This document shows positions 44,780 through 51,839 of a DNA stretch of 64,000 bases, piece after piece. Source of the stretch: Mesostigma viride (taxonomy: Eukaryota > Streptophyta > Mesostigmatophyceae > Mesostigmatales > Mesostigmataceae); contig RPFO01000164.1 in the NCBI GenBank assembly GCA_009746045.1, positions 2,795,106-2,859,105 of the forward strand. The letters run 5' to 3'. Positions within the stretch are counted from its first letter, which is position 1; each line of letters opens with the position of its first letter. The notes under the pieces are model-generated. The model worked only from the letters and a program-made list of their open reading frames with translations, was not told the DNA's origin and ran no database searches. Both the position numbers and the translations under genes were made by a program.

Positions 44780-47700
44780 GCCAAGCTGGACGGCTCGGCG
44801 TCGTCGGGTAATGCGGCCGACGCGCCTGCTATCGTCTTCGTGCTGGGTGAGCGCGCTCTGCAGCATCTCCTGTTTGTTTGTACTGGGTGAAGGCCCTGGC
44901 ATGGTTTGTGCTGGGTGAGCGTGCCTTGCATCGCTGCCGTATGTCTCTATCCTGGTTTCTTGTCTCTTGGGTGAGTGTGCCTTGCATCGCTGCCTTATGT
45001 CTCTATCCTGGTTTCTTGTCTCTTGGGTGAGTGTGCCTTGCATCGCTGCCTTATGTGTCTATCCTGGTTTCTGGTCTCTTGGGTGAGCGTGCCTTGCATC
45101 GCTGCCGTATGTCTCTATCCTGGTTTCTGGTCTCTTGGGTGAGTGTGCCTTGCATCGCTGCCTTATGTCTCTATCCTGGTTTCTTGTCTCTTGGGTGAGC
45201 GTGCCTTGCATCGCTGCCGTATGTCTCTATCCTGGTTTCTGGTCTCTTGGGTGAGTGTGCCTTGCATCGCTGCCGTATGTCTCTATCCCGGTTTCTTGTC
45301 TCTTGGGTGAGCGTGCCTTGCATCGCTGCCGTATGTCTCTATCCCGGTTTCTGGTCTCTTGGGTGAGCGTGCCTTGCATCGCTGCCGTATGTCTCTATCC
45401 TGGTTTCTTGTCTCTTGGGTGAGTGTGCCTTGCATCGCTGCCGTATGTCTCTATCCCAGTTTCTGGTCTCTTGGGTGAGTGTGCCTTGCATCGCTGCCGT
45501 ATGTCTCTATCCCAGTTTCTGGTCTCTTGGGTGAGTGTGCCTTGCATCGCTGCCTTATGTCTCTATCCTGGTTTCTGGTCTCTTGGGTGAGCGTGCCTTG
45601 CATCGCTGCCGTATGTCTCTATCCCGGTTTCTGGTCTCTTGGGTGAGCGTGCCTTGCATCGCTGCCGTATGTCTCTATCCCGGTTTCTGGTCTCTTGGGT
45701 GAGCGTGCCTTGCATCGCTGCCGTATGTCTCTATCCCGGTTTCTTGTCTCTTGGGTGAGTGTGCCTTGCATCGCTGCCTTATGTCTCTATCCCGGTTTCT
45801 TGTCTCTTTCTGATCCTGGTCGTTAAGCATGCGACACCCGCGCGTGTGTTCATAGGGTTTGAGGGCATGTAGGCAAGAACTCAGTTACCCCTGTGTTCCC
45901 AAAATATGCTGTTGCAAACCTTGTGGTGTGCTATACCTTTTCGGCAGACCTTCCTGCCCACTCTCATTCTTCATCTGCCTGCTTGTGTGCGTGCCTGTGC
46001 CGCTTTGCATGGGTGTCTGCCTCTGACTGCTCGTGTCTACCTGCACCCGCTCGTGGCTACCTGCATCCGTGTTGCGCCAGGTGGGCCTGGGTCGGGCAAG
46101 GGCACGCAATGCGCCAACATCGTGCGCGCGTACGACTTTGTGCACCTCAGCGCGGGCGACCTTCTGCGTGCCGAGATCAAGTCTGGGTCGGAGAACGGGT
46201 AGGTCTTGGGGGCGGAAGTCCGGGGCAGCCGGGCAGCGGCCTCCAAGGTAGCGGTGGTGATAACGATGCGCGTGCTCACCCCTTTGCGCCGTGTTGCTTT
46301 CCTTCCTTTGGTTCTCTGCCGACCTCCAAAGCTTTGCCCTGTTGCCTGTTGTCCCTCCGGACCCACTTCTCTCCCCTCCCCTCGCCCCCCCTCTACGTGT
46401 GCCAGCACGATGATCGCCAACATGATCAAGCAGGGCCAGATCGTTCCGTCGCATGTCACCGTGGGCCTGCTCAAGGAGGCCATGAAGCGCAGCGGCAAGA
46501 AGCGCTTCCTCATCGACGGCTTCCCGCGCAACGACGAAAACCGGGAGTCCTTTGAGCGCGAGGTGGGTCCCATCTTCGAGCGGCAGGTCGGTTTGTCCAG
46601 TCCTTTGATCAGGAGTCCATTGAGCGCGAGGTGGGTGTTTGTCTATGACTTTGATCAGGAGGCCTTTGAGAGTAACGTGGGTTGTCCCACTGAGTCCGGA
46701 ATGGGTTTGCCTAGTCAGGAGAAAGGTGGGTTGAACCCTTTTTTTAAGTGTGAGCCGTCGTCCTTCAAGGTTCTGTCATCGAGGGCAAGTCCTGTGGAAG
46801 CGCGGTGGGTCGGGGAGAAGGGGCACTGTCTGTGAGGGAAGGAACGCCTTTCTTGTGGGCCAGGGATTGCATGGGTAGATGACTTGTTTCAGGGATGAGG
46901 AGAGCAGGGTGAATTCGGACAGGTGGTGGATACATGGATGTGGGAGGAGCTTGCTGGATGCATTCATGCCCTGCTGTGACCTGTCGCCTGCTGCGTCCAC
47001 TGATTGCCTCTCGATGATTGCCTCTCGAGCGTTCCACTGGTAACCCATCCCTGTTCCATCTCACTGCCTGCTCCTGCCTCCTTTGCGTGGGCTGCCCAAC
47101 CCTCTCGCGCACGCCCTACTCACGCATATGCGGGTTGTCTAATTGATCATCCTCATGCAGACGGGCTGGGACTGCAACTTTGTGCTCTTCTTTGACTGCC
47201 CCGAGGCGGTCATGGAGAAGCGGCTTCTCAGCCGCGGGGAGGTGCGTGCCCCGTGTGAAGCCCTGCGATGGCTAGGGAAACAGTCTCTTTCTATCCATCT
47301 TGGTTTTGTCCTGGGCCTGCGCCCAGGAAGCAACGTGACTGTTATTGTCGACTTGCACGGCTGTCGTGACTCACTTGGCGTGGTTGGCTTGGGGAATAAG
47401 GGGAGAGTTTGCACTTCAGGGCAGGCATGCTGACCTTGTGTGGGCATCGAGCAAGGGCAGGTATGTTTCTTTGCGTGAATATCCATGTGCTTACAATGCT
47501 TGTGGACATTCATTTACAAGGATATGTGCTGCCGGGTTGTCTGCCTGTTTGCCTGCCTGATTGCCTGCCTGAATGCCTTCCTGGCCCCGTGCCGCGCCAC
47601 CTGTCGCGTGTGCAGGGCCGCACGGACGACAACATTGAGACGATCAAGAAGCGGTTTAACGTGAGTGTCGTAGGTATCCGCGCTCTCCTCCTACGCACCA

Positions 47701-50700: not shown

Positions 50701-51839
50701 TTTTTCTGTCACAGAAATGCGTCTTCCATGGCAGCCAGTGACAAGTCCTGCCTCCTGCCTCCTGCCTCCTGCCTCCTGCCTCCTGCCTCCTGCCTCCTGC
50801 CTCCTGCCTCCTGCCTCCTGCCTCCTGCCTCCTGCCTCCTGCCTCCTGCCTCCTGCCTCCTGCCTCCTGCCTCCTGCCTCCTGCCTCCTGCCTCCTGCCT
50901 CCTGCCTCCTGCCTCCTGCCTCCTGCCTCCTGCCTCCTGCCTCCTGCCTCCTGCCTCCTGCCTCCTGCCTCCTGCCTCCTGCCTCCTGCCTCCTGCCTCC
51001 TGCCTCCTGCCTCCTGCCTCCTGCCTCCTGCCTCCTGCCTCCTGCCTCCTGCCTCCTGCCTCCTGCCTCCTGCCTCCTGCCTCCTGCCTCCTGCCTCCTG
51101 CCTCCTGCCTCCTGCCTCCTGCCTCCTGCCTCCTGCCTCCTGCCTCCTGCCTCCTGCCTCCTGCCTCCTGCCTCCTGCCTCCTGCCTCCTGCCTCCTGCC
51201 TCCTGCCTCCTGCCTCCTGCCTCCTGCAGTCCTGCCTCCTGCCTCCTGCCTCCTGCCTCCTGCCTCCTGCCTCCTGCCTCCTGCCTCCTGCCTCCTGCCT
51301 CCTGCCTCCTGCCTCCTGCCTCCTGCCTCCTGCCTCCTGCCTCCTGCCTCCTGCCTCCTGCCTCCTGCCTCCTGCCTCCTGCCTCCTGCCTCCTGCCTCC
51401 TGCCTCCTGCCTCCTGCAGTCCTGCTTCCTTCCTTCCTTCCTTCCCTCCGTCGTTTCCTTTGTCACGTTCCTCGGCTGGCCCATAAAGATTGAATTTTTG
51501 CATTTTCGGTTGCTCTCCCTCTGTTCCTCTTTGCCCCCCCCCCCCCCAGGCCAACTCGTGGAGGGCCTGCCGTTCCACAAGTACTACTTTGACAAGGCCG
51601 CCGCCAGCAAGCGCCCCGGCCTGCCCGCTTCGTCCACAATCACGTCGCCCCGCATCCTTCTGCACAACGGCACCGCCGTCGTGACCTATGTGCGCCTGGT
51701 GCAGCGCGTAAGCGACTCCGGCTCCGTCACCGTATCCGCCTCCGAGGAGACGCGCGTGTGGGCGCATAAGCCGGGGCCGAATGGCGAACTCACCTGGCTC
51801 AATGTGCACTTCCATCGGTCGCCCGCGCCCACGCATTAA
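44780..51839 (+). CDS. UMP/CMP kinase fused to CaMKII association (hub) domain
   Basis: Exons 44780-44846, 46081-46198, 46406-46562, 47161-47241, 47616-47660, 49282-49344, 49779-49847, 50396-50510 and 51550-51839 join in frame to 334 codons plus TAA; upstream exons must exist because no ATG opens this frame. Residues ~16-200 are a complete NMP kinase: P-loop [36 protein letters not shown], and lid GRTDDN. Family knowledge assigns UMP/CMP phosphorylation by ATP. Residues 201-334 match the CaMKII oligomerisation hub: [40 protein letters not shown]-like TYVRLVQ, EETRVW, WLNVHFH. The His and Arg residues that line the hub ligand pocket in CaMKII are kept. The kinase-to-hub joint is a phase-0 intron (49848-50395) with proper GT and AG. 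No Ser/Thr kinase or calmodulin-binding segment is present. Confidence 0.9.
44911..45810 (+). repeat. 56-bp minisatellite x16 with a splice-donor motif in each unit
   Basis: Sixteen units spaced exactly 56 bases, each TTGGGTGAGTGTGCCTTGCA, then TCGCTGCCGTATGTCTCTAT, then CCTGGTTTCTTGTCTC. Variation is confined to a few positions (GAGTG/GAGCG, CCGT/CCTT, CTTG/CTGG). Each starts with GG|GTGAG, the same motif as the authentic donor at 44846/44847, so the array probably grew from that donor. Confidence 0.95.
46540..46690 (+). repeat. Degenerate tandem copies of kinase exon 3 end and donor
   Basis: The exon end GAGTCCTTTGAGCGCGAG|GTGGGT (46545-46568) recurs as GAGTCCATTGAGCGCGAG|GTGGGT at 46613-46636, and more weakly as GAGGCCTTTGAGAGTAACGT near 46660. 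Use of the second donor would add 68 nt and shift the frame. Confidence 0.8.
47695..47908 (+). mobile_element. Diverged SINE of the same architecture, inside kinase intron
   Basis: TATCTAGCAC...TTCCGAA...CACTCTCCGG...TTTTTTCGGA resembles the leader of the SINEs at 40.9 and 41.3 kb. It is followed by a B box (CGTTCGAATCC at ~47850) and a tail TTCGCGTCTTTCGCGTCCCT like their TTCCGCGTTTTCCGCGG. Identity is too low to be the same subfamily and no clear target duplication is seen. Confidence 0.55.
47958..48601 (+). repeat. 43-bp minisatellite x15, kinase intron
   Basis: Fifteen copies, 43 bases apart, of GTGCCCTATTTCCCCCTTCT then CCTGCCCTTTGTATGCGCTA and GGC. The sense strand is pyrimidine-rich. 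The array begins 50 bases after the diverged SINE. Confidence 0.95.
49570..49662 (+). repeat. 47-bp tandem duplication, kinase intron
   Basis: Two copies of CCCCTTGCATGGGTTGGAGG followed by GCATGGATGCCCTAYTTGAA and ATGTGGC, differing at one base within the aligned part. Confidence 0.9.
50041..50163 (+). repeat. ~57-bp tandem duplication, kinase-hub intron
   Basis: Two copies of TTATACGGTGCAGATGTTGA then GATGTTGAGRGTTAGGCGGT then GGGTGCTGCCCCGATGT lie in the intron that separates the kinase and hub exons. No poly(A) signal or promoter-like element is visible with them. Confidence 0.88.
50746..51425 (+). repeat. (TGCCTCC)n array before the last hub exon
   Basis: Roughly 95 units of seven bases, broken only by two TGCAGT variants near 51226 and 51415. 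Because seven is not a multiple of three, every frame reads Cys-Leu-Leu-Pro-Pro-Ala-Ser, giving long false ORFs on both strands. The pyrimidine-rich strand is the sense strand, 125 bases upstream of the acceptor of the final exon. Confidence 0.98.

Follow-up and report, generated by a model that had tools for sequence, protein, structure and literature searches.

The 64,000-nucleotide stretch of the Mesostigma viride genome analysed here (the window: contig RPFO01000164.1 of assembly GCA_009746045.1, positions 2,795,106 to 2,859,105 of the forward strand) carries a gene in which a uridine/cytidine monophosphate (UMP/CMP) kinase is joined to an association, or hub, domain of the CaMKII type. 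The full gene occupies positions 43337–51839 of the window on the forward strand and consists of 12 exons, with GT-AG borders at all 11 introns. A first-pass annotation, made from the letters of the DNA alone, had placed it at 44780–51839; the nine exons that this implied and the stop at 51839 are confirmed, but the start had been set 100 codons too late and three further exons lie upstream. The joined coding sequence of 1305 nucleotides yields a protein of 434 residues that is identical, letter for letter, to the database protein P0001 (label jgi/Mesvir1/7030). Because P0001 is likewise a Mesostigma viride gene model, the exact agreement is no independent proof of the splicing. The match to a Mesvir1 model also corrects the volvocine origin supposed in the annotation, Mesostigma viride being a streptophyte alga.

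Exon 1 (43337–43402), which matches P0001 exactly and ends at a GT donor, holds the start codon and the beginning of an N-terminal extension (residues 1–22). The extension continues through exon 2 (43559–43609), which is basic and contains no recognised domain, and exon 3 (43841–44023), which includes a weak hydrophobic stretch (residues 66–82), and it ends in exon 4 (44780–44846) together with the first strand of the kinase. Exon 5 (46081–46198) encodes the P-loop, GGPGSGKGT, and the start of the part that binds the nucleoside monophosphate (NMP); exon 6 (46406–46562) the NMP-binding region and the motif DGFPRNDEN, with Asn 207 at the base-specificity position; exon 7 (47161–47241) the kinase core and the start of the lid; exon 8 (47616–47660) the lid sequence GRTDDN and KKRF; and exon 9 (49282–49344) the C-terminal part of the kinase. 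These assignments follow the match to P0001 for exons 2–5 and 7–9, joined for exons 5 and 8 by a table of aligned residues, and for exon 6 that table and the kinase tree alignment. Exon 10 (49779–49847) encodes the last kinase helix, which forms the first half of a predicted 32-residue junction helix (residues 284–315, from the AlphaFold model and a count of junction residues). The intron that follows (49848–50395) is 548 nucleotides long, has stops in all three frames and separates kinase from hub in phase 0, as the annotation had read from the sequence. Exon 11 (50396–50510) contains the first helix of the hub, which is the second half of the junction helix, and the TAFEPEA strand (Pfam and the AlphaFold model), and exon 12 (51550–51839) the remaining hub, with FHKYYF, YVRLVQ, EETRVW and VHFHRS, and the stop codon TAA (Pfam and the residue table). 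Repeats fill parts of the introns. A minisatellite at 44912–45808 contains a 56-base unit 16 times, and its TGGGTGAGCG is similar to the splice donor after exon 4; a second, at 47958–48599, contains a 43-base unit 15 times; and the last intron, which interrupts the coding region of the hub, contains the heptamer TCCTGCC about 98 times (50746–51434).

The kinase part was assessed with profile models. A Pfam scan of residues 101–434 matches ADK (PF00406) over profile positions 1–149 of 151 with an E value of 6.4e-49. In NCBIfam, the UMP-CMP kinase family model TIGR01359 scores 247.2 bits against a cut-off of 207.6, and the adenylate kinase 1 model scores 185.3 bits, below its cut-off of 284.1. 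The nearest solved structure is the Dictyostelium UMP/CMP kinase (1uke), to which the Mesostigma protein is identical at 16 of the 17 positions looked up, P-loop included; the exception is position 61, Asn in Dictyostelium and Gln in Mesostigma. Residues K129, R152, R203, R239, R243 and R254 align with Dictyostelium K19, R42, R93, R131, R137 and R148, which we take to be catalytic residues of UMP/CMP kinase. Across the 43 family members in the residue table, the K19 and R42 positions are kept in 41 (the other two are gaps) and those of R93, R131, R137 and R148 in 42. The fourth position after GFPR, presumably the site of base recognition, at which we take Asn to be the pyrimidine-type residue, is Asn and not Gln in Mesostigma (N207); the same holds for 42 of the 43 tabulated members and for all 42 fused rows of the tree set (N..N in 41, D..N in one). 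The kinase part is a member of the UMP/CMP kinase family with predicted pyrimidine specificity, and, with its P-loop and the checked catalytic positions present, is as intact as the annotation had claimed. Among the matches listed in a VIA-align structure search there are kinases only; one domain filled the listing, which is no argument against the hub. The solved eukaryotic UMP/CMP kinases (Dictyostelium 1uke, yeast 1uky) are single-domain proteins of 191–196 residues, whereas the fusion has a hub at its C-terminal end and, in the majority of named streptophyte members, an N-terminal extension of approximately 100 residues.

The C-terminal part matches CaMKII_AD (PF08332) over nearly the full profile (positions 5–128 of 128, E value 5.1e-29, 101.5 bits against a gathering cut-off of 22.1), in agreement with the complete association domain originally proposed. 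The modelled hub matches the hubs of CaMKII alpha and beta in Foldseek with TMt scores of 0.83–0.91, and identity to the hubs listed is 38–41%. In the CaMKII ring, F394–Q436 is reported as the key lateral contact, and alanine mutants ranked by their effect on disassembly fall in the order F394, Q436, I434, F397 (PMC11199487). F394 and Q436 correspond to F347 and Q390 in Mesostigma; 41 of the 43 family members retain the first and 40 the second. The Mesostigma residues at I434, F397, L385, V389, L415, L438 and P444 are L, Y, Q, V, T, V and V, of which one in seven is identical. Of the six dimer contacts H420, H466, H468, T378, T452 and S470, Mesostigma keeps five and has Leu at H420; H466 and H468 are each found in 42 of the 43 members. 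The retention of F394 and Q436 across the family makes the clustering on a ring that the annotation envisaged likely. The same domain is found in the free-standing hubs of Chlamydomonas (6of9) and of planctomycetes (Pirellula), which stand alone and for which large assemblies are reported, an 18-mer in Chlamydomonas (PMC8985225) and a 14-mer in Pirellula (PMC9120016); in the fusion, an enzyme is attached to the first helix of the hub. From the residues and these reported assemblies of its cousins, we judge it distinctly probable that the fused protein would form a ring.

The ligand pocket of the hub is also retained. The residues reported to hold ligand in CaMKII alpha are H395, R433, R453 and R469 (PMC12148480). 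All four positions of this gamma-hydroxybutyrate pocket are occupied by the same residues in Mesostigma, and across the family they are kept in 40, 39, 41 and 39 of 43 members. They comprise the His and two Arg named in the annotation and a fourth residue, and the binding of a ligand to the hub, which it had raised, stays possible on these grounds. Trp403 of the CaMKII alpha pocket loop is absent from Mesostigma. The four conserved residues are also what would be expected if the C-terminal domain were mainly a ligand-binding or catalytic NTF2-like domain, for example one resembling iota carbonic anhydrase, that regulates or complements the kinase. The metabolic gene neighbourhood of the bacterial hubs (see below) points in the same direction, and papers on iota carbonic anhydrase, which is described as resembling CaMKII_AD, employ the same domain name. 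However, the 19 sequence matches of the hub in the PDB comprise 17 named as CaMKII or CaMKII hubs and two without a function name, none being named a carbonic anhydrase, and the residues of the assembly contacts are kept as well, such that a role in ligand binding may add to the ring rather than replace it. We regard an NTF2-like domain of this kind in place of a ring-forming hub as improbable.

The two domains meet at a junction of fixed length. The stretch from V287 in the kinase to L310 in the hub, inclusive, measures 24 residues in 41 of the 42 proteins aligned, the sole exception being P0121, a member with a decayed kinase, which has 21. An AlphaFold2 model of the Mesostigma protein, built from a 42-row alignment, contains a single helix (residues 284–315) that crosses the domain border, with a predicted local distance difference test (pLDDT) score of 95–97 in this block; confidence for the whole model is 78.9 and falls below 50 for residues 1–93. 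In the model of the oomycete protein P0100 from Achlya the helix spans residues 178–209, likewise 32 residues, at a pLDDT of 92–97; 31 of the 32 rows of its alignment are in common with the Mesostigma one, and this second model is therefore not a wholly independent test. The linkers between kinase and hub in CaMKII are reported to be disordered and of varying length (PMC9120016). In contrast, the junction of the fusion is predicted to be a continuous helix, which would act as a rigid arm. A junction of 24 residues leaves no room between kinase and hub for an autoinhibitory, calmodulin-binding segment. The precomputed domains of full-length P0001 (PF00406, PF08332 and PF13207 only) include no Ser/Thr kinase domain, and the Pfam scan of residues 101–434 found no protein kinase family. 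We saw no sign of calcium control, though a calmodulin-binding segment was not searched for. Compared with CaMKII alpha, beta, gamma and delta, the fusion has the same complete PF08332 domain and the main ring, dimer and pocket residues, but lacks a listed Ser/Thr kinase domain and Trp403. The missing Ser/Thr kinase domain and the fixed, predicted-helical junction speak against a CaMKII-like mode of control.

The pairing is not peculiar to Mesostigma. Of 6857 matches, the 120 best include 42 with both domains, and these come from oomycetes as well as from streptophyte algae, bryophytes and ferns. This co-occurrence is far beyond chance and rules out a one-off fusion. The named sources are Klebsormidium, Chara, Closterium, Sphagnum, Marchantia, Riccia, Calypogeia, Adiantum, Ceratopteris and the oomycetes Aphanomyces and Achlya; the labels Mesen1 and SM000037 presumably denote Mesotaenium and Spirogloea. 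A homologue search from an oomycete hub returned six proteins, four of them oomycete fusions, and adds Saprolegnia. No chlorophyte or seed-plant name occurs among the 42, a weak negative given that 20 of them are nameless. With hidden Markov models, both parts are detected in 45 of 238 fetched proteins, including P0121 from Selaginella, whose kinase part has lost the P-loop and in which Pfam scores the hub only. In P0154, ADK falls below its cut-off and only a 26-residue P-loop match lies above one, with the hub intact. Decayed kinases beside intact hubs in P0121 and P0154 suggest that the hub is retained for its own sake, and the two proteins are possible non-catalytic subunits. Databases already list the pair of kinase and hub domains. 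The annotation, which knew of no described protein of this kind, was mistaken if the pairing is taken to be unique but not as regards its description: we found no paper that pairs a CaMKII association domain or hub with a UMP-CMP, adenylate or nucleotide kinase in one protein, a provisional result since subscription papers were mostly not covered, nor was the key paper on non-metazoan hubs.

We considered whether two neighbouring genes had been wrongly joined. The intron between kinase and hub contains AATAAA and at least one TGTAA string, by which an alternative poly(A) site in Mesostigma remains formally possible. Against this, the two-domain open frame lies on contigs of which the longest is 1.2–1.9 kb, a cDNA-like length, in 19 of the 42 listed fusions; it is also present in P0008 and P0096, which are labelled as transcript assemblies; and the length of the junction is constant in 41 of 42 proteins. 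The probability of such an annotation artefact is negligible in our estimation. As far as seen, nothing divides the sequence into two genes, in keeping with the single fused gene first proposed, and the protein is almost certainly a true fusion of kinase and hub. Outside the fusion gene, a Pfam scan of 70 other open frames in the window found S1/OB-fold matches to the ribosome biogenesis factor RRP5 in at least one frame, RRP5/S1 families and one TPR family being all that was matched; when ten of the longest frames were rescanned singly there was no match.

One member, from Achlya, is named 'flagellar adenylate kinase', which raises the question of whether the protein is an adenylate-type kinase that buffers nucleotides in cilia. 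Mesostigma is reported to be a flagellate (PMC7027972), and no hub is attached to the five seed-plant kinases of the tree set. However, by its profile scores the kinase belongs to the UMP/CMP family rather than to adenylate kinase 1, and it has the Asn of the pyrimidine type. Furthermore, the fusion occurs in Closterium and the Mesen1-labelled protein, from a lineage that is not known to have flagella. A flagellar adenylate-type kinase is very improbable as an explanation, and a purely flagellar role is unlikely. In most named streptophyte members the N-terminal extension consists of a net basic stretch, a hydrophobic segment (often containing AAAG or AAGG) and an acidic stretch, followed by the kinase; Chara (see below) and P0044, with a short extension, are exceptions. 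The streptophyte extension resembles a mitochondrial sorting signal and may function as one, putative import being proposed from composition alone.

We next consider the history of the fusion. A hub tree of 64 rows contained 35 fused hubs, 14 of 80 bacterial hubs, seven hubs fused to DHFR and eight CaMKII hubs, and omitted ten of the 45 kinase-hub proteins and P0154 (near-copies, fragments and one long branch). The fused hubs fit a single group: with all 35 constrained to lie together, the tree was better by 8.1 log units than that from the free search (p 0.73 in the approximately unbiased, AU, test). The CaMKII hubs form a group of their own, with a support of 99 in the Shimodaira–Hasegawa-like approximate likelihood ratio test (SH-aLRT). 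In a hub tree of 98 rows, the fused label requires two changes. The kinases were analysed in a tree of 75 rows, 41 fused and 34 unfused. The unfused rows were restricted to those with Asn at the base position and are biased towards proteins with two ADK domains, which ranked high among the best 120; P0121, P0085 and P0236 (lost or cut kinases), P0118 and P0075 (fragments) and P0037, P0105, P0109 and P0050 (long or odd sequences) were omitted beforehand. A strict clade of the 41 fused kinases is rejected in this tree (AU p 0.0027). A clade of the fused kinases together with five unfused seed-plant kinases is not rejected (AU p 0.38, 2.7 log units), though this group was named after viewing a tree and its p value is a guide only. 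In a larger kinase tree, of 121 rows, the seed-plant kinases P0002, P0004, P0005, P0007 and P0016, which lack the hub, lie inside the streptophyte fused group, and the fused label needs five changes, at least four of them forced by starred branches. These changes and the placement of the oomycete kinases in that tree make independent fusions possible; the identical length of the junction speaks against them. The simplest reading of the trees is that one old fusion occurred and that the hub was lost towards seed plants.

Hub domains of the same type are found next to nucleotide enzymes in bacteria. A scan of bacterial and archaeal genomes with the patterns FH[KER][YF]YF[DN][LK] and [LI]T[AC]FEPE[AG][RQ] identified 151 hub loci. 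We retained the 80 best, and the titles of 75 of these name planctomycetes. The patterns include F394 and H395, and the conservation of these two residues in 80 of 80 bacterial rows is thus partly by construction. As neighbour we took the longest frame near the hub, which was usable upstream at 69 loci and downstream at 59. Among the 69 upstream neighbours scanned, 22 match ThyX and eight DHFR, 30 in all, while seven match FHA and four the uracil-DNA glycosylase superfamily; none of the 59 downstream neighbours matches ThyX, DHFR or the uracil-DNA glycosylase superfamily. Gaps between the stop codon of the enzyme and the hub domain are 15–117 nucleotides. In a tree built from the hubs of these 80 loci, eight changes are needed for the thyX label and seven for the DHFR label, but starred branches force only three and one of them, respectively. 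Fusions of DHFR to a hub, apparently bacterial, account for 29 of the best 120 of 545 matches to the Mesostigma hub (P0122–P0149 and others); the three that were scanned by Pfam have full DHFR and hub domains, and among the DHFR-hub proteins the length of the junction is variable. No paper on a fusion of DHFR with a CaMKII association domain was found in the literature searched. Two apparent ThyX-hub fusions, P0129 and P0151, are each known from one contig with ThyX cut short; they are probably read-through of neighbouring genes and were not included in the fusion counts. ThyX and DHFR both serve thymidylate synthesis. The bacterial DHFR-hub proteins and the thyX- or DHFR-hub gene pairs are thus like the kinase fusion in that a CaMKII-type hub directly follows an enzyme that serves nucleotide supply, and differ from it in the fold of the enzyme and, for the DHFR fusions, in the variable junction, a separate fusion event. 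We infer that pyrimidine nucleotide supply is the common thread of the bacterial and the kinase-fused hubs. The fixed junction with its continuous predicted helix, the conserved ring and pocket residues and this bacterial thyX/DHFR neighbourhood are the new elements of the present analysis.

The explanation that fits best overall, and which we consider likely, is a rigid ring of pyrimidine nucleotide kinases. The last helix of the UMP/CMP kinase would run unbroken into the first helix of the hub; the hubs would pair and close into two-tiered rings, like the hubs of CaMKII and the reported free-standing hubs of algae and planctomycetes; and some 12–20 kinases would project rigidly, in a fixed geometry, from one ring. 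Such a ring would be a constitutive, high-density scaffold of UMP/CMP kinase and not a calcium switch. The kinase activity would perhaps be coupled to, or tuned by, a small acidic ligand that binds in the pocket of the hub, and in streptophytes the N-terminal extension would possibly direct the protein to mitochondria. That the role of the hub is to scaffold pyrimidine kinase activity is somewhat favoured.

A number of observations weigh against this explanation or parts of it. The Mesostigma evidence is a gene model, with no transcript, and the structural models are single chains without inter-domain error values; no oligomer was observed. Conservation is lower in the hub than in the kinase, with mean pairwise identities of 48% and 63%, respectively, over 40 sequences. 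Fused kinases of the oomycete type stand apart from those of streptophytes, among unfused kinases, in the 121-row tree, such that a single origin is not shown, and the bacterial neighbour counts, drawn mostly from planctomycetes that are related to one another, are not independent. As to the extension, that of Chara is odd, being acidic and 265 residues long, the oomycete members lack one and start almost directly at the kinase, and the hydrophobic stretch in Mesostigma is weak, with a mean hydropathy of 1.4. At the ring interface, Mesostigma has Leu and Tyr in place of the third- and fourth-ranked contacts, I434 and F397, and L385, L415, L438 and P444 are changed too and poorly kept by the family; the dimer contact H420, also poorly kept, is Leu. 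The changes at H420 and at several secondary lateral positions would suit a hub that only dimerises, through the ancestral vertical contact, to give a dimeric kinase and no ring. Dimers are reported as the commonest state among solved relatives in the wider superfamily, in 11 of the tallied 22 crystal structures plus human alpha (PMC9120016). Nevertheless, the two residues ranked top for ring assembly (PMC11199487) are those kept in 41 and 40 of 43 members, and the free-standing cousins are reported as an 18-mer (PMC8985225) and a 14-mer (PMC9120016). A dimeric kinase is accordingly possible but unlikely, and we retain the ring of kinases as the preferred explanation.

A broader reading joins the bacterial and eukaryotic observations, and we advance it tentatively, with well under even confidence. 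At root, the CaMKII-type hub would be a scaffold of metabolism that serves the supply of pyrimidines and thymidylate, associated with ThyX and DHFR in bacteria and rigidly fused to UMP/CMP kinase in eukaryotes; its His/Arg pocket would sense an acidic metabolite of the pathway; and animals would later have co-opted the hub for calcium signalling. Kinase and hub would have been fused a single time, deep in eukaryotes, and seed-plant UMP/CMP kinases would stem from that fusion, having lost the hub.

The CaMKII hub has been studied as a memory device. A conserved and apparently rigid fusion of the hub to a metabolic enzyme, together with the thymidylate neighbours in bacteria, would give it a concrete role outside signalling and offers a possible clue to the natural ligand of its pocket. 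Should the ring form, many algae, mosses, liverworts and ferns would have at least one pyrimidine kinase that is a giant assembly, built on a hub that the five seed-plant kinases examined do without.

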